DNA of 64,000 bases, from contig CM060183.1 in the NCBI GenBank assembly GCA_030549335.1, positions 20,348,552 through 20,412,551 of the forward strand. The letters run 5' to 3'. The stretch is from Pontederia crassipes (Eukaryota > Streptophyta > Magnoliopsida > Commelinales > Pontederiaceae). A program made the position numbers and the translations under genes. This document shows, piece after piece, positions 3-56,885 of this stretch. Numbering within the stretch: the first letter of the stretch is position 1; each line of letters starts with the position of its first letter. The notes under the pieces were generated by a model. That model saw nothing but the letters and a program-made list of their open reading frames with translations, was not told where the DNA came from and searched no databases.

Positions 3-2198
3 CTCGGGCATATTATCAGTGAAAATGGAATATCGGTAGATCCTGCAAAGGTGGAAGCAGTTGCCAACTGGGCACAACCGAAAAATGCGTCAGAGATTAG
101 AAGCTTCCTTGGACTTGCTGGATATTACAGGAGATTCATTCATGACTTTTCCAAAATTGCATCGCCATTAACAAATCTCACTAAAAAAGGCATCAAGTAT
201 GAATGGTCACAGAGATGTGAAGATAGTTTTCAAGAGTTAAAGAAGAAACTGACAACGGCACCCATTCTGACCATACCTTCAGGCCAAGGAGGTTATGTCA
301 TATATAGCGACGCATGCGGCACTGGTTTAGGATGCGTCTTGATGCAACACGGGAAGGTAATTGCATATGCATCAAGACAATTAAAGAAGAATGAGAAGAA
401 TTATCCGACGCATGATCTCGAATTAGCAGCTGTGGTCTTCGCCCTCAAAATTTGGCGACACTATCTATATGGCGAAGAGTTCGAAATCTTCACAGACCAC
501 AAGAGCTTGAAATACATTTTCTCTCAAAAGGACTTGAATATGCGTCAGAGAAGGTGGATTGAGTTTCTAAAGGATTATGAGTTCGCTATCAGCTATCATC
601 CAGGGAAGGCAAACTCAGTTGCTGACGCACTTAGTAGAAAATGGGGAGGATCACTCGCATGCCTGAGAGTGAGTCGTTGGAACATGATTGACTGCATTAT
701 CCAGGTCAGTCTAGTGACCAGCAGCGACGGTATACGAATTATGGCACACCTCGGCATGCAACCCGAGCTACTATTGAAGATAGGCAAAGCACAACCAAAC
801 GATAACGAGTACAACCACCTACTCAAGTTGTGCGAAAAGATTCCCACAGATTTTACGGTCACAGGTGGAGTGATCAGATATAGGGGACGATTGTGGGTCC
901 CTGAGTATGAAGCATTGAGAAGACAAGTGTTGGATGAGTGCCACAAGTCGGAGTTCGCCATTCATCCTGGAAGCACGAAGATGTTCAAATACTTGCAACG
1001 GACCTTCTGGTGGAATAATATGAAGAAGGATGTGGCTGAGTACGTTGCAAGATGTCTAGTATGCCAACAAGTGAAAGTGGAACATCAGAGACCTTATGGT
1101 GTACTACAAGAACTTGGAATCCCACAATGGAAATGAGAAAAGGTGACTATGGATTTCGTCACTGGGCTTCCAAGAACTCAACAAGGCCATGATGCGATAT
1201 GGGTGGTGGTGGACCGGTTTAGCAAGGCAGCTCATTTCATCCCCATCAAATGGAAACAGTCTGTCGAAAGTCTGATGGACGTTTATATTAAGGAGGTTAT
1301 CCGACTACATGGAGTGCCAGTCTCCATTGTGTCGGATAGAGATCCACGGTTTACAGCCAAATTTTGGCGGAGCATCCAAAGTGCTTTTGGAACAAAATTA
1401 AATTTCAGTACTGCGTTTCATCCTCAGACAGACGGACAATCTGAACGAACGATTCAGACATTAGAAGACATGCTACGTGCATGTGCGTTGGACTGGAGTG
1501 GCAGTTGAGACACGCATCTCCCACTGATCGAGTTCGCATACAATAACAGTTACCACTCCAGCATAGGCATGGCACCATTTGCAGCAATGTATGGAAGGCC
1601 TTGTCGCTCCCCCATCTGTTGGAGTGAGGTGGGAGGACGTCAATTCTTATCAGAGGAGTTAATGAAGCAAACCAAGAAAGATGCTGAAAAAGTTCGCCTT
1701 ATTAGAGAGAGATTGAAAACAGCATTCACAAGACAGAAAACATATGCTGACAAGAAGAGAAGAGAACAAATTTTTAAAGTGGGAGATCGAGTTATGTTAA
1801 AAGTTTCTCCAATGAAAGGGGTAATGAGATTCAGCAAGAAGGGTAAGTTGAGTCCAAGATATGTTGGCCCCTTCGAAGTACTTGCATTGATCGGAGATGC
1901 AGCTTGTAGGTTGGCGTTGCCTCCATCATATGGACACGTGCATAATGTCTTTCACGTGTCCATGTTGCGCAAGTACCAACATGATGATGCTAATGTGGTG
2001 AATATGGAGGAACCAAATTTGAATGTAGATCTGACATATGCTGAGCAGCCTATAGAAATCTTGGAGTACCAAACTAAGCATATGAAGAATAAAATGGTAC
2101 CCATGGTGAGGGTGGCTTGGACACATCATAGAGATGAAGATGCCACCTGGGAACTGGAAGAAGAAATGAGAAGAGATTTTCCAGAATTATTTAGGTGA
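3..2198 (+). pseudogene. Ty3/gypsy pol polyprotein, 3' part, two nonsense codons
   Basis: One frame runs from base 3 to the stop at 2196-2198, broken only by TGA at 1134-1136 and 1506-1508. Visible domains are the RT thumb ([17 protein letters not shown]), RNase H ([27 protein letters not shown]), the integrase HHCC zinc finger around 930-1075 (H..H, CLVCQQ), the integrase catalytic core from 1149 (MDFVTGLP; SDRDPRF; HPQTDGQSERT, giving D, D and E), and a chromodomain near 2040-2195 (PIEILEYQTK, WELEEEM). The enzyme copies element RNA into DNA and inserts it; the chromodomain is thought to guide insertion to marked chromatin. Both stops sit where Trp is expected (W-K-W-E-K; G-S-W-D-T), so each is a TGG to TGA change with no frameshift. 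Confidence 0.93.
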
Positions 2199-6212: not shown

Positions 6213-9200
6213 TTAAGCAGACTCATTAGAAGGTTTGTCTTCTTCGGGATTTGATTTAGTTGGATCTTCCGCACCCATCTCAGCTTTGAGGTCATTGATG
6301 CTCTGCTCCAGTTCATCAATTTTACCTCCCATTTCATCTAGTGAATTTCAGTTAAGAGAAACATCCTCCAAATGTGTAAGCAAGCATAAAGATGAAAGCA
6401 AGACAACAAGATCACAATTGAGTAATGGATGGGGATGTGAAAATCATATAGCAACAAATGATTTTCTCATCCTTTTAGAACAATAGTATTGTGGTGTTCA
6501 AGATCCAACTTAACAAAAGGATATTTTTCAAAATGATGTTGTCAGACATGGCCTGAAACCTGTCTTGCTGCATAGCAATATCGTTAGCAGTAAAACAAGA
6601 TCAATGAAAAAAGTTCCACTACAAAAACAAAATATTTCCGTGTCAGCAGGGAGAACATACCATTTGCGCAAGCAGGTTTTGTACCTGAAAGGACACAGCG
6701 ACATTCTTAAATTGCTTAGATGTTGAAAAGACATGAAATCTATAATATGCTATTCAGAACTAAAAATAGTACAACATGCACCATTTTCATAACAAGAGAA
6801 ATATCTAACTGCATTATAACAAACCAAATTGATGGCAATCCCTTAAGTCAGATCTTTTGATTCATTAGTGGCAAGTGTAATGAATTTCAACGTATAATCA
6901 GCCTTTTTTTCTGTATAAAATGGGAGGAAAGAGAACTCACAAAAGCTGTCATATCAGCAGTGCTCTGTGTTGAATCTTGGTCAGCCTATAATTAGCACAA
7001 CAAAACAAATTCAATATACAGATCATACATATCAAAACAATACTTATTTAATGCACATAAAGAATGAACTACAAATTAAGCAAAAATTAAAATAAACAAA
7101 CCATGACATAAAATGTCCATTAAAAAACATATCACAAGAATAAGCCTTGCAACAACATGATTTCATGGTTAACAATGATAACAATCATATACACGAAGAA
7201 ATATCAATAGAACTATATCCTACTTCAACAGGAGCATCATATAGAGATACCATAATTAGAGACAATTTACTATTTCAACAGACTTATATCCCACTTCAAC
7301 GTAAGTATTAGGCAGAGATTACCATAATTAGAGGCAAGTTATTATGCATGCCACATCACTTTAAGTTTTCTGACATCGACAAAAAACATTTTGTTCCATT
7401 TTGTCTTAATTTTGTTTTTCATAAGTGCATTTGGCGTAAAAGTTTTGTTTCCAATCTTTAGGTCACAAATGAAGAGATGGCAATTTATTAAATGAAAATT
7501 AAGAAAACATTAAGGTTGCAACAATGATATTACTGAAGGGAAGCTAAGAGAGTTGTAACCCGGATTATGCCTCTATTTCATGATAAAGAATCACAGCTAC
7601 AAGTCTACAATGGTCATGAAAGAATTTAAACCATGGTTTCCCTCTAAGGGGGGAAATGTATTTAAAATATAAAATAAAAACTAAAGTTATCTCACTACAG
7701 AAATTCTGTAGAGTTTCGTTAGACAATTGAAGGTGAAGCACAATGAGTTCTTAGAAGTGGTGCACTTTACTTAATTTTGTTTTTTGAAAAGAACTGGTGC
7801 CTTTTACTTAAATCTTTGTACAATAAAAAGGTACCACAGCCAAGATATGCTGCTTGCACAATTGCAATGTGACAGATAGAAAAGAAAGATCACCGACTTT
7901 ATATGCAAAAGCAGATGCACATCACCTTATGAACTAACAACATTTTCTGTTGCAATGAAATATCATGCATTTGCACTTAATACAAGAGATGAAGAGACCT
8001 ACAACATCACATTATCCTACTAGTCCACTTCCACGACTTTGATGCTGAACAAGAACAACAGCATTAAGTAACAGGACTTTACGCCAATTGTGAAATACAT
8101 ATGTTTTGTTGAATGCATTTGAAATGTGACATGCATTAGTTAAAGATAAACTATTTCCGGTAACAACTTTGCATTTAAAATTAGAACACTGTCTCTTCAT
8201 CAAATGCATTGAATATATGAATAATCACTTTGTGTTATTAATCATTACAACAACAACAACAACAACAAAGCCTTATCCCACTAAGTGGGGTCGGCTACAT
8301 GGATCATACGACGCCATTCCGCTCTATTAGTAACCAAACCTTTCGGTATATTATTCACCAATAGATCTTGCTCTATTAGTTCGCCAAGTGTCCGCCTTGG
8401 CCTCCCTCTCCCTCTTTTAATCAGACTCCAGATTATTTGATCTACTCTTCTTACTGGCGCATCTAATGATCTTCTCTGAACATGACCAAACCATCTCAAA
8501 CGATTCTCTACCATTTTCTCACTAATAGGAGCCACTTCGACTCGTTCACGTATATGGTCATTCTTAATCTTATCTAATCTTGTATGACCACACATCCATC
8601 TCAACATCCTCATTTCGGCTACCCCCACTTTACGTTCGTGTTGTCCCTTCATAGCCCAACATTAACTACAATATAACACTGCTGGTACGATAGAATTTTT
8701 CTTTAACTTTATTGGGTACTTTTCTATCACAAAGAACTCCAGTGGCTTTCCTCCACTTCCACCAACCCGCTTGAATTCTATGAACGGGATATTCTGATAC
8801 TGCCAATATAAGGTTTTGAAATTATGCCACCTCTCAAGAAAGTTGCTATAAGACTAACCCATTACTCCAAAAACGTTATTCAGAAACGATATCCAAGATA
8901 GACATATTTCAAGGTTACTCATGGAAAGAAGGGTCCCTTCAGTTCAATTTAACAAAAAAAGAAAGCAACCATCCTTCCAGATATTACACTTCGGCGTCAT
9001 TTTTTCTTTCAAAGGCTCTATCCAATACATCGCTACCATAATGCAAGTTACTTACGCCAATTTAACTTTCAATAAATTGGCTACCATATTATGCATATGA
9101 CTGGAGAAATCATTCCAGTTATAAATCTTTCGGCACCCTAGACTAATAAATACAATGATCAAACCTATGCATTTACAGTTTGAATAAAATTTCTTTATCT

Positions 9201-9457
9201 AGAACGGGATAAATCCCAAGAATGACGACGATTGAACCAAACACAGATCCAAGCGAGATTCAATATGTGCAGCCCTAGAAAAGTTGTGTACAGTGAAATC
9301 GAAAGAAGAACGAGAGTGTGTTTTTTTTTTTTTTTGACCCGATTGATTCGCTTGGATCCACGCGACGGATACAATAAATTAAGGGGGGAAAAAATCTGAA
9401 CAAGTTGTTTTTCGCGAGCGGACTAACCTTGGCACCTCGCGGATTGGTGGTCGCCAT
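6213..9457 (-). CDS. HSBP: Heat shock factor binding protein (HSBP)
   Basis: Minus-strand exons are 9457-9428, 6985-6941, 6684-6661, 6567-6525 and 6340-6213. They join to 270 bases, an 89-residue protein of normal family length. Residues 15-60 are the conserved HSBP coiled coil ([41 protein letters not shown]) with hydrophobic heptads. The acidic, charged tail ([16 protein letters not shown]) is variable in the family. HSBPs bind trimeric heat shock factors and damp the heat-shock response; in plants they also act in embryo development. The first ATG follows a GC-richer leader and is followed by a good donor (GTTAGT). Exon 3 is only 24 nt. The last intron (6341-6524) is AT-AC. Intron 1 is 2.4 kb and holds a LINE remnant. 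The frame is intact, so the gene is probably functional. Confidence 0.93.
6341..6524 (-). other. U12-type AT-AC intron of HSBP
   Basis: On the minus strand the intron begins ATATCCTTTT, the U12 5' splice site consensus, and ends TTCAC. A branch-site-like CTTAAC (plus 6351-6356) sits about 10 bases before the end, as U12 introns require. Only this AC junction restores the family sequence [16 protein letters not shown]. The GT-AG alternative, using the TAG two bases further on, shifts the frame. Length is 184 bp. Confidence 0.9.
8247..8800 (-). repeat. RTE-type LINE, 3' end fragment
   Basis: Minus-strand translation gives the C-terminal part of an RTE-clade reverse transcriptase [21 protein letters not shown], then [28 protein letters not shown], and the end [11 protein letters not shown] before a stop. 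The frame carries a stop near 8673 and is 5'-truncated near 8800, so it is dead. The 3' tail is a (TTG)n run, seen as CAACAA on the plus strand at 8247-8269. It lies inside HSBP intron 1 in the same orientation as the gene. The last ~60 bp match the SINE copies elsewhere in the window. Confidence 0.88.
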
Positions 9458-16900: not shown

Positions 16901-19382
16901 GCGAATTAATGCTCAATCTGGCATAAGCGTTTGATTATAACATTTGTGATATGACTAAACAAAACGCACCATGTAACTGTCATGAGACAAAAATAAACAA
17001 GTTCTCAATTTTGCATTATAGGATTCAGTTATGGAATGTACTTATGTTTGGTCTTCTGTTTTAGATTGTTTTCTGGATTGTTTAAACCTGAATATAGAAC
17101 TTTCAACTATAAGATTAATTATTGAAACCATCTTTTCAGCTACCTTGATATCCAGTCTAGTTTCCACAAGAACAGCCAGGAATGATATTCTGATACTGTC
17201 TAGTTTCCACAAGAACAGTAGGGAATGATGTTCGATTACTCCATAAATAGTTACAGGATTTGGTTAACAGCCCTTTCCCCGGAAGTAGCCCATGAAAGGC
17301 TGGTACATCAAAGGATTTCCCTTGCCAAAGAAATATAGTGTGCTATTTAAACTACTTTTCTTCTTTGTTTAATGGAATTTAGAATTTCATCTGATTTAAA
17401 TACCTGATAATCTTAATGGCATACAGTAGAATGACATCTTTTCTGAGTTCTGCTTGAAGCCATAATAGCTGTTGATATCAATTTTCAACTTGTTAAAGTT
17501 CTGTTTAACATCAGTAAACAGAAACCCAGTAATGCATAAATTTTTTAGATGGTTAACGCTGAATAAGCAATGCTGTCAAAATAGAAGGGAAGATGTATTT
17601 CCATATTGTTTCATGACAAGCAATAAAAGTTCATGATTTCTTTGTGGCTTTGATTTCTGGAATAAGTTCTATTTGTTTGCATGTTTACTTGTTTGAGTTA
17701 TATTTAGCTGTTCTTCTCAATGCATTATAAATCTTAGCGTCTGTCCAGATAATGCAATAACTTATTGTAATATATTCCTACTAAACTTGGTAGTCATCCT
17801 TTCTGCTCTCAAAAGAAAAAAACTTGAATCTTTATTTATGGTTCTATGTATCAAACACAGTATGAGGATTCTACGCCTTCCACACATTTATGCTCATCAA
17901 GCAGGAGTAATGTAAGTGATGCTAGCGAAGATGATGTGATCTGTGAACCAACTCGTAGAAGTCGTCGGCTTGTTAAAAAGAAAAGATATTGCGATCTTTC
18001 GAATTATACCATTCTGGATAAGAATCAAGAGGCTCCTTTTGAAGATAATAATAATTATCCTAAGTCAAACAATATAAGTGGTTCAAGGAGCAGATCCAGA
18101 TCATCGCTGGAGGCGATGACAGCTATGAGCACTATCTGTGATTATCAGGGAAGCAGGGCATCACCTGAACAAGTTGAAGGCATCAACCATTTGAGAAATG
18201 AATGTCCTTCAGAAAGCTGTAAGGGTTTGGCATCCTGTGATGCACTTTCTCATGAAATGACTTCAGAGAATGAGCATTCTCAACATCAAAGTGAAAAGGT
18301 TGTTTCTTCAGAATCTGATCTAATCCATATTGTACAAAGTGAAAAAGATGGCAACTGTGAACCAGAAAATGAGCACAGACAATCCGATATATCATGTGTC
18401 ATATGCTTGACGAACTTTTGTTCAAAGAGAGGTGTTTTACCTTGTGGCCATCGATTTTGTTACTCTTGTATACAAGGATGGGCTGAATGCATGGTAAGCA
18501 AACTTTTTCCCTATGAATCCATATGCTTTCAATCAAAATATTTTTCTTGTTATTATGTCCTTATTCACATATTAGAATGTCTTGCATGCCTATAGTTATT
18601 GCCTTGATGCCCTCTATACATTGTTATATATCAAGAAGTGCAGCTTATTGTTGAAAGAGAAATTAGGATGTGTGTAGAGGTTTCATTATGGTTTTTGGCT
18701 TTCTTTTTCCTTTAGATATTCACTTTTGTAACCTGCACAAGCAGCGTGCAGGAATCTTTCTTTGATGTTGTAACCGAATGTTGTTGATTGTTTGTAGGCT
18801 TCAAGCGGGAAGGTGACAACATGCCCTATATGTAAAGCAGCTTTCTCAGCTATCATAATGATGGATGATACCTTTCCTGATCAGAAGATATACTCCCAAA
18901 CAATTCCTTATGGATTGTCAGATGTGGATAGTTTGTTTCCCATGGACAAAGGAAAAGTCATGCCTGAAACTTGGGTAAGCCTTATTTTCCTACATCTGCC
19001 GATCTGCTTGATGTTATATAAGAAGTAATAATCATACATATCGTTCCTAATGTTCTCGATATATTTATCCTGTTTATAAAATCTATCCGTTATTTAGTTC
19101 CAGTAACTAATTCTTCTTATACTTCAATATGATATCTTTTTATGGTATTATTCTTCAGAGAGTTAATTTCATTTTTCTTTGTTTTTTTTAAACTTTGCTG
19201 ATGTGAAGTCCTCGGAGTGTATCTGTTACAAATGCCATAACCATGAGCCAGCCGACCTTCTGTTTTCATGCCATCTATGCAGCAATCGATGGGTACATTC
19301 CTATTGCTTGGACCCTCCATTGTTTCCTTGGACCTGCATTTCTTGCAGGGAAATCAAAGCGCTCTATCAACGTTTCCGTTGA
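13981..19382 (+). CDS. BRCT, RING and PHD-like finger protein (probable nuclear E3 ligase)
   Basis: Exons are 13981-14026, 14453-14601, 14740-14873, 15035-15236, 16272-16403, 17861-18493, 18798-18974 and 19209-19382. They join to 1647 bases (548 aa), all with GT-AG junctions and consistent phases. A BRCT domain spans about residues 18-105 ([57 protein letters not shown]). The middle is Ser-rich with a basic patch ([12 protein letters not shown]). A C3HC4 RING starts at Cys400 ([22 protein letters not shown]). A PHD-like C-rich module ends the protein ([20 protein letters not shown]). The order matches the Arabidopsis RING/BRCT protein I know as At1g67180. BRCT domains read phosphorylated partners, so a role in DNA damage or chromatin ubiquitination is inferred. 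The first ATG is used; it is not preceded by an upstream in-frame extension with homology. Confidence 0.9.
16594..16696 (+). repeat. 30-bp direct repeat around GGA and poly-G tracts (intron 5)
   Basis: Two identical copies of a 30-base sequence ending CACTGTGTAATTG (16594-16623 and 16667-16696) flank a GGT/GGA repeat and a run of 20 G (16650-16669). It lies in intron 5 of the BRCT-RING gene. Replication slippage is the simplest cause; G-quadruplex formation is possible. Confidence 0.8.
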
Positions 19383-25216: not shown

Positions 25217-25310
25217 TAAAGGACTCCTCTAAGTACTGAACATTCACTGAAGGAAAATATTAGACGCCAAGTGGAGATCAAAGATCGGGGGGTGCTAATA
25301 GCTTACTCTA

Positions 25311-25597
25311 CCGTCGAGTGGATTGGCTTCTCGTGATATAAGTTGTTGAAGGCTGAGAATCGCTAAAGCTGCCGGAATATGTGGGGCTGCCGCATGACCA
25401 CCCTTGCCTTGGATGGTTTCCACGAAACGGGAAGATGCTGCAAGAAGAGGTTCAGGTCTGGAAACAGTCAAAGAATTAGAAACAGTTGGATCCACATGCA
25501 TTGCAAAGACTGCATCATCAAGAACACCCTCTTCATAAAAATGATAAGCACCAACTCCACCCTCTTCTGCCGGTTGAAAAACAAGCTTCACGGTTCC
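25311..25597 (-). pseudogene. IAA-amino acid hydrolase (ILR1-like, M20), one-exon fragment
   Basis: The minus frame GTVKLVFQPAEEGGVGAYHF, LDDAVFAMHVDPTVSNSLTV, RFVETIQGKGGHAAAPH and AILSLQQLISREANPLDGRV is the middle of plant IAA-amido hydrolases. These metallopeptidases of about 440 residues free auxin from amino-acid conjugates. The exon is entered by an acceptor AG just before 25597 and leaves near 25311, where a GTAGAG donor is possible. The metal-binding residues of the N-terminal half and the C-terminal exons are absent. It lies 0.4 kb from the subtilase piece on the same strand, and the two come from unrelated genes, which favours gene capture. Confidence 0.87.
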
Positions 25598-26002
25598 CTT
25601 GACATAGGAACTTATGTTAGTGGCTAGCTCAAAATATATACATATTAGATTGAATCTTAGTGTTGAAAATAACCTGAATTACACTTCAAGATTATAATTC
25701 ACTTGTCTGGGTACTGCCAATTTTAAGGTCAATGATTATAACATGTACATCAACCAACAATGAGAAATGATTTGAATCGGATGGATGAACAATACCATAG
25801 ACTTTTTTTGAGGAGAGGCCATATACTTCTTATATTACACTGGATATAAAGGAATGTGTACACAAAAAAACAAACCAAAAGAATGAAAAGAATTGACATT
25901 TACAGTATATATGTAGGGTCTGTTTAATTCACACAACTGCAACAGCCAAAGGCTGCTAGACCTGATTGTCATTCCAAAGGAGCAAAGTATAATCCATCAA
26001 TC

Positions 26003-34790: not shown

Positions 34791-35184
34791 CACTTCATCA
34801 GCAATTTAGAAGCTTTCATGAATTCTCTGCCAATCTTCTTCCTTCACCCTGTCTGCTTTCGTGATCTGTGAAGGAGATTTGGATATGCATGAAAGTCTTC
34901 AGGCTTGAAATTTCAGTCCCCGTTCGGCTTGACAGTTTGGTTTGGAGGTATTTCGAATCAAAGGCGTTAATATGTTCATGTTCCATATACTGCTGCACCG
35001 GGATCATGAACTGGACCTGCTGATGGAGTTTCATAACAGGAAAAGTTTGATGCATAGAAGGATCAGCCATGCAATCTTTGCAGTGCAGCAGATCTCATGA
35101 CTAGAATTGGTTTTGGCTATATATCCTTGCGTTAAATTGGCAGGTTCCTCTGATCGCGTGTCATTTGACGCTTCTGATTCCGCC

Positions 35185-36949
35185 ATGGACAGCAGTGCCT
35201 TCAAGCTTCTCCGTCAGACGCAGCATCAGTTGCAGAACATTCCCAAGCTGCTCTTGCTGCCGACAATATTCTTCGTCGTCGCCATGGTCGTCTTCCCTGA
35301 TCAGCCTTCTCTCAATCCGCTCAACATCATGTTTTACAATTCCTACCATGCAAATTCCTCCACGAACGCTACTTCGTCTGAGGCCACAGAAAGCAATAGT
35401 TCTGCTCCGAGTCCTTCTCCTCCAACCAGAGAAAGCATCGCAGATAGTTATTGCTCAAATTTTTCTTCCAACCCTTCCTCACGTTGCTCCGTGGAAGACG
35501 ACTTCGTCCCTGATACCCCGTCGACAAAGAATGATCCGACTAGTAAGAATGACTCCACTCCTTCCTCCAACCCTTCAAAGAATGATCATCCAATGGATGC
35601 GCCTGCGACAAATGACAGTAGGAACTACTCGAAATCCTCTTCGAACTCTCCTTCGATTCCTACTACTGTTAACAGTACGCCTACGCGTTTAAATCCTTCT
35701 CCGAAACCTTCGCCCACTGGTCGTTCTTCTTCCACCCCTAATGCCTCTGCAGCCGCGGCGGCAACAAAAAACAGAAGTACAACAATTACAGTCCGGGACT
35801 CGATCAAAACCTGCGACCTGTTTAAGGGGAACTGGATTCCTGATCCTGAGGCCCCCTACTACACGAACTTGACCTGCTTCATGATTCAGGAGCACCAGAA
35901 CTGCATGAAGTTTGGGAGGCCGGACACAGATTTCCTGAAGTGGAGGTGGAAGCCACAGGACTGCGAGATGACGCGATTCGACCCTCTCAGCTTCCTGGAG
36001 ACCGTAAGGGGGAAATCCATGGCGTTTGTTGGCGATTCCTTGGCCAGAAACCACATGCAGTCTCTGCTCTGCCTCTTGTCAAGGGTACGTGCGTACGCAT
36101 CTTTCTGACAGCATGCGACCAGATTACGTATGCGTACGCATCAAAACTTCCAGGTAGAACTTGACCAGCGCTTGATCTCTGCTTCATTCTCCTAATTCCC
36201 TGCAGGTAGAACTTCCAGAGGACGTGGATATGGGAGACATAGAGATCAAGCGCCTGTTCTACGCCAAGTACAACTTTACCATCACGATCTTTTGGTCCCC
36301 GTACTTGGTGAAGGCGAAGGAGCTGAAGAAGTTTGGCCTCTGGTACATCTACCTCGACGAGATCGACACCAAATGGGCGTCTCGCCTCGAGGAGTTCGAT
36401 TACCTGATCGTTTCCGGCGCGAACTGGTTCACCAGGCCGTCGCTGTACTTCACCGGCGGCGTCATACACGGGTGCAACTACTGCCAGGTGAGGAGGTACA
36501 CCATCAGGTCGCTGCACTACGCCAACAAGATGGTCTTCGAGACCGTGTTCAGGACCATCAACACGGCCGCCAAGTACAAGGGCCTGACCATCATGAGGAC
36601 CGTCTCGCCGTCGCACTTCGAGAACGGGCCGTGGAACCAGGGCGGCAACTGCAGGCGGACGCGGCCGTCCCGCCCGGGCGAGAGCAAATTCCAGGGGAGC
36701 GAGCAGGAGATGTACAAGGCGCAGCTGGACGTGTTCAAGGCCGCAAAGGCAGAGGGCAGGAAGAAAGGATTGGAGTTCAAGCTGATGGACATGACCAGCG
36801 CCATGCTGATGAGGCCGGACGGGCACCCCGACCGCTACGGCCACTGGCCGAACGAGTACGTAGCCATGCACAACGACTGCGTGCACTGGTGCTTGCCGGG
36901 ACCTGTGGATATGTGGAGCGAGTTGCTGCAGCAGATGATTAGACCGTAA
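35185..36949 (+). CDS. TBL: TRICHOME BIREFRINGENCE-LIKE polysaccharide O-acetyltransferase
   Basis: Exons 35185-36084 and 36206-36949 join to 547 residues. It is a Golgi type II membrane protein by family: a short cytosolic N-terminus, a membrane anchor at about residues 20-38 ([17 protein letters not shown]), then a Ser/Pro/Asn-rich stalk to about 205. The TBL domain starts [20 protein letters not shown]. The esterase motif GDS is at 283-285 ([10 protein letters not shown]) and the D524-x2-H527 motif is near the end (DCVHWCLPG). The catalytic Ser, Asp and His are all present. The family adds acetyl groups to wall xylan, mannan, xyloglucan or pectin; the substrate here is not decided by sequence, though the AXY4-like clade is a guess. 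ATG 35185 was chosen over the in-frame 35107 because the extra 26 residues lack family features and a 3' splice site-like TTGGCAG lies between them. Exon 2 is strikingly GC-rich. Confidence 0.93.
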
Positions 36950-40687: not shown

Positions 40688-40991
40688 TTATTCCAAGTGG
40701 TACCGTGGGCTTATTGGGCCTTGATTTTAATTTGTTCCAAAACTAAATCGGATCGAGCACGCGCCGTCACGCGTGCTGTTCCTACGCCCTCGTCCTCTTG
40801 TTCTCTCTCCTGCCGATCTCATCACCGCCATACCTAAAAAAAGAACTCGACCGAGGGCTCTGTCGGCCAACGGCCCAATAAAACCCCTCGAGCTCGATCA
40901 TCGCCGGTGCCGTCCCCCGAATCCGATCGCCGGAGGTCATCGCCGTTCTTCTCCTTCCTTCCCTCGGCGGAGCTCTCGAGGACTCGCTCCT

Positions 40992-43900
40992 ATGGCGGTC
41001 GTCGCCCCTTCCTCGTCCTCCCCCACCGCTAGAAACCTGGATCCCGACAAGTCCGACGCTGGCAATCCCTCTCCCGAGACGCTCCAGGAAGCTGCCTCCA
41101 ACTCTGCTCCGGACTTGGCATCAGCAGCCGTAGATGCCCCTCCGGCCCCCTCCAACCCTAACCCTAATCCTGTCCTTCAGATAAACCCTGCCCCTGTCGT
41201 CACCCCGCCTCCTCCTCCCGCCGCTCCGTCGTTCCGGCCGCTGGGAGCCCCTCCAGTTCCGCAGTACTCCTCAATCCCGAATCCTGGCTTCCAGGGAGTG
41301 ATCCAGCCGCCTGGGGTGTCGGCTGCGCCAGTCCCTATGATGCCTCCCGGAGGGGTGTACAGGGCGGCCGGTCCCGGGCAGCCTATGGGTGCCGTTCCGA
41401 TGGCTTACGGGCAGGTTCCCAATGGATATCCACCCAATCCGATGGCTCCACCTCAGGGGCCGATGGGCATGATGCCTCCTCCAGGTGGGACTTCTACATC
41501 GATCATTGTTTGTTCCCTCATTTGATTTTGGTTGTTTATGGCTTAATTTGTGCGTTTTTCTTTTCATATTATAAGTTAAGGTTCTTCCTTTTATTACAAT
41601 TCTTGTTCGGTTTGTTGAAACTTCTGACGTAAACGGTAATAGAAGTATAGCTAGCATGGACGTTTCACTAATTTAGGTTGATGCCAAAGTTGTAAGCTTG
41701 CTTAGTCAGAATGCGACCAGTGGAGACAAAAAAATGTTATTTAAGACAAAAAAGAAGAGAGAGAATTAGTGTGTTTGTTTTTCTGGTGTTGTGGTAACAC
41801 AATTTAGCTTAGCTGCTGGTGGGTTATTGAGATTGGGTCTGAGGAGGAATATAACATTGAGAGAAGAAGAAAAGGGATGCATTTGATGTGATGAATGGCA
41901 TTTTGTCCTACAGCGGCGTCCTATGGGTCATGGTGAAAAAATCGGCTGGCTTCTTCACCTAGTGCTTAAAAGACTACTACTATGCATTGGTATGCGTAAA
42001 ATTTCAGTCATGTTGAATTTTTCGTACAAATTGGTTTGTACTTTGAGGTGCTCATCAAATTGAATTCACAAAGCCTAAAAGGTTTTGGGTAGTTATTGTA
42101 CTCCTACAATTTGCTGTCCATTTATTAGATGTAATGTTGTTTCCTCCTTTCTGGATTTCATGGGTACTTAAATCTTTCAACAGTGGATCATTTTGTCATG
42201 TGAGTGGTCGATGCGTAATGTCACGAGGTACAATGATCTTTGTTTATGTATTTTATTTCTCTTGCTATTTCCCTTGCATACAATTAAGTGATTATTTTTT
42301 CTTAATTAAGAATTTTAATCATAGTGATACACCATAGTGCTGTCAATCTGACTAAAGCATACTCATGTCCTGAGCTCTGGAAAAATCAAGATGTTCAATA
42401 TCCCCTCTTAGTTCTTGGGGTTAGTTTTGGAGATTGTATGCAAGAATGTAGATAAGGTAAGCAAAATTTCATATATTTATGGTTTGGATCAAACAGATTC
42501 TATTTGTGTGCATGTTCCCCCAGGTTTCAGTTTCAGCTGGTGGTAGTTGCTACCTCTGTGGTGCGCATCTCTTGTGTGCTTTATTGTTGTGGTAAAATTG
42601 TTTTGTTTATTTTACATTTTTTACCATTAAATCTGTAGAAAATGCCATGAACAAACAGTGTACTTTGTCTTTCACATTTGGGAACTTTGTCTGATATGTT
42701 TGCATAGCTATTTTTAATGTTTCTCCAGGAATGCCCCGTTATCCTTATCCTGCAATGATCCGTCCTGGATTTCCTCCGCGCACAATTCCACCTATTGGTA
42801 TGATGCCCCAAGTTTCAAGGCCTTTGATTCCTGGTGTTCGTGGAGTTCCACCTGCCCCTCTTGTTATCAGACCGATTGGTCCTGTTGTTCCGCCAGCTGA
42901 GAAGCCACAAACAACTGTTTATGTTGGCAAGATTGTTCCCACTGTGGATAATGATTTTCTCCTTTCTATCCTTAAGGTGTGTTTCTACTTTACTATGCAT
43001 CTCTTGGATCAATTACAAAGGTGTGTTTTCTATCCAAATTCGTGGACAAATGATGATTTCTTCCTGACTTTCTATTTATTTGGTCTGAGCACATAGCTTT
43101 GTGGGCCTGTAAAGAGCTGGAAACGTGCTCAGGATCCTTCTGATGGTACTCCTAAAGGATTTGGCTTTTGTGAATTTGAGTCTGCGGATGGAGTTCTTCG
43201 ATCATTGCGCTTGCTGAGTAAATTGAGCATCGATGGGCAAGAGCTGGTGGTATGATTTTTGTCGTATATGTTCCTTTTCAAAAATAAAATATTGCAATCC
43301 TGAGCTAAATTATTGTGATTAAGTTGTCAGTTTATTGATGAAAATCAAGGAATCATTCTCCACCACTATGTTTTTGTGAAGCACTTTCCACAACTTTGTT
43401 TATCGGTGACACATATTCTTAAGCTTTTTTCCTCATGAGACAATACAGATACTCTTTCTCCTTATTGTTTCTATGTTGTTGACATGCAGATTTAGTTGGT
43501 GTCTTCCTAGTTTCTGATTGTATCTGACTGTATTAGGGCCTTAATATGGACCTCATTATTCATTACTTTTACAATTAAGTTGAATTTGCGCTTCACTTGG
43601 TTTTTGTTGTTGGATAAACTTAAGTTTCTATGATGTGATGTCTAAGTGCAAGCGAAGTACCATATGTTGAAGCTTTATTTGTCAGTAACATTTGTTTTTT
43701 ACTCGTTAAATTTAACATGGTACACTGTGTACAATATTAATTAATTTAACCCTGTCCATGTTTGTATGACTTGCATTTTACCCACATTATCAAGTTTGTT
43801 AATGTGATTTCATTCTTCAGTTAAACATAAATCAAGCCACTAGGGAATATCTGCATCGATGTGTTGAAAAGAAAACTGAGGCGGAAAAGCTCAAGGAAGC

Positions 43901-46138
43901 AGAATCTGGAGGCACTGACAAAGAGAATGGAAGTACTGCAGATGATGAACCTAAAAAGGCAGATGCAGAAGAAGGTAAGAAAGATTCAGAAGAATCTGGG
44001 GATAAACAAAACCAAGAGAATAGCGAGAGGTTTGGCATTGTCACAGAGGAAGATCGTGAGGCTGATAAGGTTGCTTTAGAGAAGCTCACAGTCATGATTG
44101 AAGATAGAATAAAGAATAAACCTTTGCCGCCTCCTCCACCTGTACCAGCACCTGCTGACGCCCCTGTTAAGTCCAACTCTGAAGTACCTTTGAGGTCCAG
44201 AGATGGTGACTCAGATGTGGACATCACAAAAAATGGTGAGTTGACAATTTTAGTTCTGCTGAATTTTGCGATCATCATGTTTTCTTCTTAACAATATAGT
44301 TTCCCAAACATTCATTGGTGTTGCAGAAGATAAAATCAGTGATGAAACCAGCAGTGAGAATAAAGCAGCAACTGAAAATGATAAGCCAGAAACCAGCTCA
44401 CCTGACAGAGGTAGGAGGCATGATAGCAGAAATAAGGAAAGAGATAGAGAGCGTGATTTGAAAAGGGAGAAAGAGAGAGAACTTGAGAAAGCTGAAAGGG
44501 AGAGAGAACGGGAGAGACTTAGGAGGGAGAGGGATAGGGAGTTGAAACTAAAGGAGGCTGAACGGTTTTTTAAGGACCGTTTGAAGGATTGGGAAAGTAG
44601 AGAAAGGGAGAAAGAACAACAAAGGAAACTTGAGAAAGAAAGGGAGAAGGAAAGAGAGAGGGAACGGCGGAAAGAGATATTAAGACAAGAAGATGAAATG
44701 GATGATGATGATTCAAGGAGAAGAAGGCGGAGGAGTGATATGATTGAGGACAAGAGGAGAAAAAGAAAACGCGAGAAGGAAGATGATCTGGATGACAGAT
44801 TAAAAGAAGAGGAAGAAATCTCTGATGCTAAGAGGAGGGCAGTAGAGGCTCAGTCAATTAAAGATGAACAAAAATCTCCAATCCATGTTTCTGTTGAGAT
44901 AGAAAAATGTGTTTCACAAGAAGCAGTTGGTTACATGGAAGATGTACAAGCAGTTGCAGTTCATGATCACAAGATTGCATCCACTAATGTTGACAGCATT
45001 GGTAAGCTATCCAGTACTTTTATTTAAATATACTTGTATCTATTCATGCTCTTGAGATATACATGGTTAAATTTTCCCTTCCCACAGGAGATGAAAATTG
45101 CAGAAAGAACAGCGGCAGTGATGAAATTATGCTTACCACTTCTGATACAAAGCAGAACAATACTGCTCCAGCTCGAAAACTTGGATTCGGACTAATAGGA
45201 TCAGGGAAACGTACGGCTGTTCCTTCAGTCTTCCATGATGAAGATGATGAAAATGTGGATGAGAAAAAAATGAGACCTTTGGTGCCAATTGATTATTCTA
45301 CAGAGGAACTGCAGGCTGTCCAATCAAATTCAACTGGGGCACAAGCAAATTTGGTAGCAGCTGCTGAATTCGCCAAACATATATCTGGTGTTAACACAAG
45401 AGAAGAGAAATTTGAGGCAGAGAAAGAAAGAAATAGGCATTCTGGTGAGAGATCCAGTCTGAGAGAACGAAATCGAAATGATGGTGATAATGGCCACAGA
45501 GATGATATTCGGGAGAAGATTCACAAAAGCTCGAACCGGGAGAAAGATCAAGATGATAAGCCAAAAACAGAAAATAGGAAGCTTTTAGATGCCAAGCAGT
45601 TGATAGACATGATTCCAAAGACCAAGGAGGAACTCTTTATCTACGAGATCAATTGGGAGGTTTATGACAAGGTGAGGAAGATTTATTTGATAATCATTTG
45701 CTAGGGCCTTCTAATCCATGCCCCACATTCCTAAATTCTTAATATGACAATAAATTCAAATTGCTCTTCATTTCTTTGTATATGATTTGTGAATAGTTAT
45801 CTGTGCGACTTTTCTGGTGGTATATAACACATTTCTGCTAGTCCAGGTGACTTTAAATTTTATTAATTTTGTGACACTGTATGCAGCACAAGCTGCATGA
45901 GAGGATGAAACCATGGATTTCAAAGAAGATAACTGAATTTCTCGGGGAGGAGGAAGAAACATTGGTCGAGTATATTGTTTCATCCACCAAGGAACATGTG
46001 CCTGCTTCCCAAATGTTAGAAATTCTTCAGGCCATCTTTGAGGATGAGGCGGAAATGTTCGTCCTCAAAATGTGGCGGATGCTGATTTTTGAAATAAAGA
46101 AAGTGGAGAGTGGGCTGTCTGGGAAATCGAAGCCCTGA
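40992..46138 (+). CDS. RBM25: RBM25-like splicing factor (RRM and PWI)
   Basis: Exons are 40992-41484, 42729-42976, 43097-43249, 43821-44235, 44327-45001, 45088-45671 and 45887-46138, joining to 2820 bases (939 aa) with consistent phases. The N-terminus to about 220 is Pro/Gly/Met-rich (FRPLGAPPVPQYS, MGMMPPPG). An RRM spans about 225-298 (TVYVGKIVP as RNP2; KGFGFCEFE as RNP1). An acidic linker follows, then a long RE/RD/ERER charged helix in exon 5. The C-terminal PWI domain is at about 840-925 (KPWISKKITEFLG, VEYIVSS, FVLKMWRMLIFEIKK). RBM25 proteins join spliceosomal RNPs and affect splice-site choice; plant RBM25 acts in ABA responses. ATG 40992 was preferred to the in-frame 40773 because it has the family-like start, and the upstream part is probably leader. 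Confidence 0.95.
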
Positions 46139-54436: not shown

Positions 54437-56885
54437 TTATAATGATGCATAAAAGAAATAATCATTTAAATTTTTACCTTCTTGTGTACAAACTTTTGGA
54501 ACATCCAAATCATTATAAATCATTTTTTCTAACTCATCATAATCAAGTAATGGAGTATCTTCATCTTTTACAATCCAATAATCAATCTTTTCTATACTTT
54601 CATAATCAATTGGATCAAGAAGAGATTTCTCCTCGTTAAGAGCCCTATAAAACAAAGAAACATATATAATCAATCAAATATGAATTATAGTTTTTTTATA
54701 AATAATAACTTTTTTATAACACGTACCTATTTTTCAATCCCAAGTTATAATGAACATACACAAGATCATTTAATCTCTTATGTTCTAACTTATTTCTTTT
54801 CTTTGAATGTATCCTTTCAAACACACTCCAATTTCTCTCACAACCAGAAGAAGATGCAGTTTGGCTTAGTAGTCGAATTGCCAATTGTGATATTATTGGA
54901 GCATTGAATCCAAAACTACGCCACCATTTATAGAAATATTAGTAACACTTAACAAAGTTAATAATATAAAAAAAATTAAAAAAATGATATTATTACCTGG
55001 TCTTAACTCTTTAGCTGTTTCAATAGCTAAATGATTAACGAAGCTTAGCATTCGATTATGATATAGCCAACTTTGTTTCAAGTCTTCAGTTTTTCTATAT
55101 GTAACAAGTGTATCCAATACATCAAGCCATCCTTGTTGCACTTCTGGTTTGATACAAAAGTTCTCTTTGTTATAAAAAAATGCGGGATTAAAAAAATATG
55201 CAGCACAATGAATCTTTTTGCGAAGTTGATTATCTCGTATATTCTTGATGATTCTTGTATAAGGATTGTATAAAGATCTTTTCATCATAAATATTTTCTT
55301 AATTATTTTCTTTGCTCTGTAGATGCCATCGTATACATAACCAAGTGAAGGTCTATCATCTCCATCAACAATTCTTAACAATCGAACCAAAGGAGCTACA
55401 ACTTGCACAATAACACCACAATCATTGCAAAACCTACTATCCAAGATAATGTCTATGACAACTCTTGCTTTCTTATCCTTGTAGTATCTTGAATTTGAAA
55501 AGTCTGAACTTGTGACTAGAGCTTGCAAATCAATTTTATAATCATAAATACTTTTCAATTCAATAAAGGTTGTAGCAAAACGAGTTGCTCCAGGACGTAA
55601 AATTTCAGTCCACTTTGATCTTTTTCTTAACCAAGCAAGTAAAAATGGATGATTATAAACAAACTTTGTCACCTTACTTGTTTTTTCTGTTAAAACAGTC
55701 ACAAGCTCCATTTTTCCAAGATCTCCTAAGATCAAATTCAAACAATGTGCAGCACAAGGAGACCAAAAGATAGTAGGATACTTTTCATTCAATAGTCTAC
55801 CTACAGCTTTATAATTTGCAGCATTATCTCTAACCAAGTGCACAATATTTTCCACTCCAACAAATTCAACCAATTCCACAAATAAATTACAAAGAGTTTG
55901 AGCAGCATAACTGATCTAACAAAACAAATTTCTTTTGGAGAATAAATGAGAAAATTAATTAGTTGTCTATTCTTTCGATCTTGCCAACCATCACCCATGA
56001 TAGTGCAACCAGTTTCTTTCCAACCATTTCTAAAAGTTTCAACCAATAATCCTACCTCCTTCTTGATATCATATAATAATTTGGTTCTAATAGAATGATA
56101 AGTTGTATCCTAGACCAATAGCAACAATAGCATCTATCATGGGTTGATAATAAACTGAATTTGCACAGTTAAATGAAATACAACAATCATAAAAAATCTA
56201 GCAACAATCAAATCAGCTCGATATATAGCATCTTTACCTGCCATAGCACTTCTACTAGAAGGTTGTGCACTAGGACTTATCCTTAGAACAAAAAAAGTGG
56301 TTGCATTTGTTACTTCCTTTCCCTTCCCTTTTGCAACTTGTTCTTGTGAACATTGTACACCTACATGTGACTGTTGATTAGAATTTTCTTCATCTCTTTG
56401 ATCAAGTCTTCTTTTCTTGGATGCAGATGCCACTTTCAATTGTTCTCCAAGAAGATACTTCACCTCATAATTAACTTTAGGACAAGGCATTACATCTCCT
56501 TTTTGTCCTGCAAGATGCATCTTCATTCTATGTATTCCTCCACCTTTAAAAATTTTTGCACAATATAAACATTTTAACCATTTTATGCCACTTTCAATTG
56601 TTCTCCAAGAAGATACTTCACCTCATAACTAATTTTAGGACAAGGCATTACATCTCCTTTTTATCCTGCAAGATACATCTTCATTCTATGTATTCCTCCA
56701 CCTTTAAAAACTTTTGCACAATATAAATATTTTAACCATTTTTTTTCTTCGGCATCATAACAAATTTGACAATGTTCCCATGCAACATCAGATTTTAGTC
56801 TCACTGATTGAGTACTAGCAATTGCAGATTGAGTGTTCGGTGCTACTGTTTGAGATTCACCAGTACTACTTCCGACAGATGCCAT
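54437..56885 (-). pseudogene. hAT transposase (BED finger, DUF659-type), broken
   Basis: From the start at 56885, the minus strand gives a Ser/Thr-rich N-terminus, a BED-type zinc finger (HCQICYDAEEKKW, GGGIHRMKMYLAG), the catalytic core (GCTIMGDGWQDRKNRQLINF; VRDNAANYKAVGRLLNEKYP; WSPCAAHCLNLIL) and the C-terminal hAT dimerisation block (near 54728-54918: SSSGCERNWSVFERIHSKKR, LNDLVYVHYNLGLKNR). A separate acidic final exon follows (54437-54650). Damage includes a 158-bp tandem duplication in the zinc-finger exon (units at 56428 and 56586), a CAA to TAA stop in one unit, and a frameshift near 55915 between the two core pieces. The transposase would bind the element ends and cut; this copy cannot make a full protein. 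Confidence 0.9.
56428..56743 (-). repeat. 158-bp tandem duplication inside the transposase
   Basis: The segment starting TGCCACTTTCAATTGTTC at 56428 repeats at 56586 with several point differences. The length is not a multiple of three, so it shifts the zinc-finger exon's frame. Confidence 0.88.

Follow-up and report, generated by a model that had tools for sequence, protein, structure and literature searches.

Does the last intron of the HSBP gene in this 64 kb window (the whole stretch of DNA that was analyzed) belong to the minor, U12-type class with AT-AC ends, and is it functional? We conclude that HSBP intron 4 is very probably a genuine and functional U12-type AT-AC intron, its splicing being something that we infer from the sequence. 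The basis of this reading consists of the sequence itself, the reading frame, the fit to Pfam, a duplicate of the gene elsewhere in the genome, and the genes for small nuclear RNAs (snRNAs) and splicing factors. A U12-type AT-AC intron in this gene had been proposed in a preliminary description of the window, and that proposal is now backed by frame, Pfam score, splice signals, intron phase, the duplicate, and genes of the minor spliceosome.

The HSBP gene and its product

The HSBP gene occupies five exons on the minus strand of the window, and its product of 89 amino acids (aa) ends with NESA and a stop codon. Exon 1 (9428..9457, encoding 10 aa from an assumed start codon) is followed by a GT donor; exon 2 (6941..6985) encodes 15 aa; exon 3 (6661..6684) encodes VQNLLAQM; exon 4 (6525..6567) encodes 14 aa and contributes the first base of a split Ile codon; and exon 5 (6213..6340) opens by completing that Ile and runs to NESA and the stop. 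The numbers of bases identical to those of the duplicate on C2 (described below) are 30/30, 45/45, 23/24, 43/43, and 125/128 for exons 1 to 5, respectively. Introns 1-3 are GT-AG introns that lie between codons (phase 0), unlike intron 4, which interrupts the Ile codon after its first base and is therefore of phase 1.

Without exon 1, the product (79 aa) scores 80.7 bits against the Pfam HSBP1 profile (PF06825; cut-off 28.6), covering profile positions 2-49 of 51, and phmmer aligns it with the solved human HSBP1 (3ci9; E 1.5e-10) free of gaps across the exon 4/5 junction. The window protein has the coiled-coil core in common with the HSBP1 family (PF06825), which includes human HSBP1, Arabidopsis HSBP, and rice OsHSBP1. 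The part of PMC12582567 cited here describes binding of trimeric heat shock factors by Arabidopsis HSBP and their attenuation, and the part of PMC12922113 cited here describes better heat survival in rice OsHSBP1 knockouts; we regard the window protein as a putative attenuator of the heat response. The same part of PMC12922113 names coding exon 5 of OsHSBP1 as a guide-target site, which fits with five exons annotated elsewhere and is silent on the type of intron.

Choice of the exon 4/5 junction

We tried 1,103 pairs of donor and acceptor around exons 4 and 5 (449 AT-AG, 261 AT-AC, 175 GT-AG, 112 GT-AC, and 106 GC-AG). Four of them are in frame and reach GGKIDELEQ, and their products score against Pfam HSBP1 as follows: AT-AC 6524-6341, 80.7 bits; AT-AG 6524-6338, 66.9 bits; GT-AC 6509-6341, 65.9 bits; and GT-AG 6509-6338, 64.8 bits (the form that reads on into intron 4 scores 43.6 bits). 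NIILK and IDEMGG are both present in two of the four in-frame products, and the GT-AC product has NILLL inserted between them. One pairing among the 1,103 thus gives an unbroken core, in agreement with the earlier claim that the AT-AC splice is the only one to yield the conserved core of HSBP.

The remaining in-frame pairings that end in AG represent distinct accounts of how the gene is spliced. The U12-type donor might be joined to the TAG that lies three bases on (AT-AG, 6524-6338), either alone or as a second isoform, so that N replaces ID. This pairing keeps the frame, and AT-AG minor introns are listed among the human A-type introns in the cited part of PMC8280824. Its product nevertheless scores 13.8 bits worse than that of the AT-AC junction and is one residue short in the core, where human HSBP1 aligns ungapped; sharing the U12-type donor, the AT-AG form could occur as a minor isoform, and overall we consider this account very improbable. 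The only in-frame GT-AG alternative (6338..6509, minus strand; weak donor TAA/GTTGGA, acceptor TAG) would make this a major-class intron, with NILLLN replacing ID at the junction. Its product is still recognizable as HSBP1, as the score given above indicates, but its donor agrees with the consensus at 4 of 9 positions, where the donors of introns 1-3 agree at 8, 6, and 7; the product is 15.9 bits worse in Pfam than the AT-AC product, against which human HSBP1 aligns without gaps; and a net gain of four residues would shift the register of the coiled coil within the conserved core. Use of this GT-AG intron is accordingly most unlikely in our judgment.

Splice signals of intron 4

The consensus of U12-type 5' splice sites is ATATCCTTT, or RTATCCTTT, and that of U12-type branch sites, which lie close to the 3' end of the intron, is TTCCTTAAC. 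Intron 4 (6341..6524, minus strand; 184 nt, phase 1) has AT-AC ends and starts ATATCCTTTT. This 5' splice site (6515..6524) matches RTATCCTTT at 9 of 9 positions, and the branch site TCTCTTAAC (6351..6359) matches TTCCTTAAC at 7 of 9, retaining CTTAAC and departing from the consensus at two positions. The 3' splice site CAC (6341..6343) is a YAC end that restores the reading frame. An AT-AC intron at 6341..6524 of the minus strand, with a CAC end and a CTTAAC branch site approximately 10 nt from it, had been described previously; the coordinates proved exact, and the branch site is present, its branch A lying 11 nt from the final nucleotide of the intron. The optimal branch distance for minor introns is given as 11-13 nt in the cited part of PMC6717393.

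The GT-AG introns of the same gene served as controls: introns 1, 2, and 3 match the U12-type 5' signal at 2, 4, and 6 of 9 positions (9 for intron 4), and the U12-type branch site at 4, 4, and 6 of 9 (7 for intron 4). In its 5' site, branch site, branch distance, and 3' AC, and also in its non-zero phase and its GT-AG neighbors within the gene, intron 4 is like the known U12-type AT-AC introns of plants and animals, to which it very probably adds a member. The sole difference that we saw is that its branch site TCTCTTAAC is weaker than the consensus.

How often such signals occur by chance can be estimated from the window itself. On both strands of the 64 kb, RTATCCTTT is found 3 times (2.54 expected) and TCTTAAC-N5-12-YAC once (1.60 expected), and there is no occurrence of the strict form TTCCTTAAC-N5-12-YAC (0.17 expected). 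A 9/9 5' signal stands at 3 of the 19,135 AT or GT positions in the window, and a comparable branch site lies 9-14 nt from 15 of the 12,965 AC or AG ends (the intron 4 site being counted in both cases). From these window frequencies, which include the intron 4 site, we obtain a joint frequency of about 2e-7 for both signals at a single specified junction, a figure that is applicable here because the protein fixes the junction. Either motif alone is unremarkable; the improbable part is that both are found exactly at the junction that the protein requires. A genome-wide search for ATATCCTTTT followed by CTTAAC within 30 nt was set aside as uninformative (46 matches, compared with 68 in a reversed control), because the allowed gap is shorter than the intron and the reversed control was the richer.

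The AT-AC ends do not by themselves imply the minor class, given that the major spliceosome, too, can remove introns with such ends (U2-type AT-AC). U2-type AT-AC introns are not known to carry a full U12-type 5' site and branch site. Intron 4 has the full U12-type 5' site together with a branch site at a U12-typical distance, and we give its removal by the major spliceosome very little credence, although the cited part of PMC8280824 mentions 85 human introns of the major AT-AC kind or of related subtypes.

A duplicate of the gene on C2

The peptide encoded by exon 5, the query on which our count of copies rests, was found at two places in the genome (1.13 Gb, 43 contigs), namely the window and C2:18637502-18637627. 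The C2 duplicate has the same five exons with one amino-acid difference, and it has kept the AT-AC intron. Between the two copies intron 4 differs at 4 of 184 bases (intron positions 24, 102, 142, and 148), none of which falls in the 5', branch, or 3' site. The coding bases differ at 4/270, compared with 125/2,503 aligned bases in a non-coding set made up of introns 1-3 plus 300 bases of 3' flank (3' UTR; Fisher p 0.006), and the coding part is therefore under constraint; the comparison supports the view that this would be a working gene. That neither HSBP copy is expressed, the signals being relics, is thus hardly credible, given this difference between coding and non-coding bases and the open frame that is kept in both copies.

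Intron 4 (4/184) is not significantly slower than the other non-coding sequence (125/2,503; Fisher p 0.11), and the idea that intron 4 is unusually well conserved between the two copies was abandoned on these grounds. The C2 copy is a recent duplicate and hence a poor guide to whether the intron is constrained.

A search that tolerated up to 3 mismatches turned up no retrocopy containing the spliced junction. The Pfam HSBP1 profile, searched over the genome, gave no match, nor did it give one in the controls, which we attribute to the splitting of the 51-position domain over short exons. Within HSBP intron 1, a segment of about 540 bases (window 8255-8797) is without counterpart at the matching place on C2. 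The minus-strand end of this segment is TAGTGGGATAAGGCTTTGTTGTTGTTG, its last 69 or so bases have inverted copies elsewhere in the C2 stretch, and it includes an open frame (8281-8661, minus strand) that we take to resemble the terminal part of a LINE reverse transcriptase.

Minor-spliceosome components in the genome

The genome has three matches to U12 snRNA, one of them over the cut-off (93.4 bits), 15 matches to U6atac over the cut-off (best 92.2 bits), and three to U11 over the cut-off (best 70.8 bits); some of these matches could be pseudogenes. U4atac was not found in the genome with the Rfam model when 49 of 53,043 first-look candidates were scored, nor did any control give a match. This result does not show absence; most likely the search was too limited, or U4atac has diverged in plants. 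Among the proteins, pieces of CCDC84/CENATAC are found on C11 and C12 (6 matches), and the DIM1 family has 10 matches, eight of which pair into four loci on C7, C8, C11, and C12 (166 to 52 bits) that we take for the general U5 protein. The other two DIM1 matches are on C9 (C9:599450-599849, minus strand; 45 and 37.8 bits), where one matched piece contains an in-frame TGA, perhaps an exon edge. Compared with the PDB, two pieces of the C9 locus match three sequences each (E <= 0.001), every one of which is named TXNL4B (one also Dim1-like protein). A TXNL4B/DROL1-like locus is seen once (on C9), in comparison with four higher-scoring DIM1 loci. No match for any of the five matched families (U12, U6atac, U11, CCDC84/CENATAC, and DIM1) was found in any of 14 control genomes, and the genome searches for these families are therefore without a positive control. 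Depletion of CENATAC in human cells affected 92% of A-type and 24% of G-type minor introns, according to the cited part of PMC8280824, and AT-AC minor introns are reported, in the portions of the literature drawn on here, to be dependent on CENATAC (human) and DROL1 (Arabidopsis).

We predicted the pairing of these snRNAs with the signals of intron 4. With the 5' site ATATCCTTTT, the 5' end of the genome's U11 (its first base having been set by eye) would form 8 consecutive pairs and U6atac would form 7; with TCTCTTAAC, U12 would form an interrupted helix of -7.2 kcal/mol, as against -14.0 kcal/mol for the consensus branch site. The fraction of shuffles of the same bases that score at or below the observed pairing is 0.025 for U11, 0.24 for U6atac, and 0.13 for U12. 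Because the U11 pairing is the only one that stands out against the shuffles, the pairings fit the proposed class but prove little.

For a U12-type AT-AC intron we would expect the following course of events: the 5' end, ATATCCTTTT, would be bound through base pairing by U11 and the branch site TCTCTTAAC by U12, U6atac would then take the place of U11, and the intron would leave as AT...AC, probably aided by CENATAC and TXNL4B/DROL1-like factors. The joining of exons 4 and 5 would reconstitute the interrupted Ile codon and give an HSBP core without a break. Judged from the DNA, transcripts would thus be spliced at 6525/6340 by the minor spliceosome, and the output of HSBP would depend on that splicing.

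One of the U11 matches (C1:20098729-20098861, minus strand) lies downstream of HSBP on the strand of that gene, some 250 kb away from the window. Another (C2:18977157-18977289, plus strand) is likewise downstream of the duplicate and on its strand, at a distance of some 340 kb. Because the arrangement is the same on C1 and C2, U11 and HSBP seem to lie within one duplicated block; that they are neighbors is probably a coincidence.

Intron retention and the heat response

If intron 4 is retained, then a stop is predicted at 6477 after 63 aa, with a hydrophobic tail at the end, and the product would lack the latter half of its coiled coil. Inefficient splicing of intron 4 is plausible because its branch site is weaker than the consensus (-7.2 compared with -14.0 kcal/mol, as given above). 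A heat-regulated splicing switch in HSBP is speculation, and we regard it as improbable that intron 4, through its weak branch site, acts as a temperature-sensitive or stress-sensitive valve on HSBP. Were this so, heat or reduced minor-spliceosome activity (CENATAC/DROL1-like) would lead to retention and to HSBP of 63 aa or none, and heat shock factors would be active for longer. Intron 4 being the most downstream coding intron that was found, a message that retains it would have no later exon junction (unless the 3' UTR has one) and might therefore escape decay; with such a valve, the truncated coiled coil might even affect the full-length protein.

With intron 4 read as U12-type, a putative damper of the heat response joins those genes of this plant whose expression would require the minor spliceosome. 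HSBP would fall in the AT-AC subset reported to be tied to CENATAC (human) and DROL1 (Arabidopsis), and this would provide a testable link between minor splicing and the shutting off of the heat response; we infer, as did the preliminary description, that heat feedback may depend on minor-spliceosome activity. Gene models that allow no introns other than GT-AG would get the best-conserved region of HSBP wrong. Among the papers that were searched, we found nothing that joins HSBP or HSBP1 with U12 or minor introns; HSBP may well be present already in the Arabidopsis or maize lists of U12 genes, and because such supplementary lists lay outside the search, no novelty is claimed at the level of the gene.

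Other searches and contents of the window

Relatives of HSBP were sought in viral contigs, where 9 and 137 pattern matches were obtained and none was confirmed by tblastn, and in bacterial and archaeal genomes, where none of 282 pattern matches was confirmed. An Rfam search of the window yielded nothing over the gathering score.

Several further frames were recognized in the window. The region 35101-36949 (plus strand) encodes PMR5N and PC-Esterase domains and is presumably a trichome-birefringence-like gene. Open frames at 40731-45704 (plus strand) are Pro-rich and then consist of Arg/Glu repeats; the two frames tested had no Pfam match, and we suppose that the region resembles an RBM25-type splicing factor. 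A RING-finger frame is located at 17828-18595 (plus strand) and a Peptidase_M20 frame at 25295-25678 (minus strand). Two more frames are, we assume, derived from mobile elements: that at 54893-55915 (minus strand), with DUF659, would be hAT-transposase-like, and that at 1509-2198 (plus strand), with a Tf2-1-like SH3 domain, would be part of a Ty3-type element.
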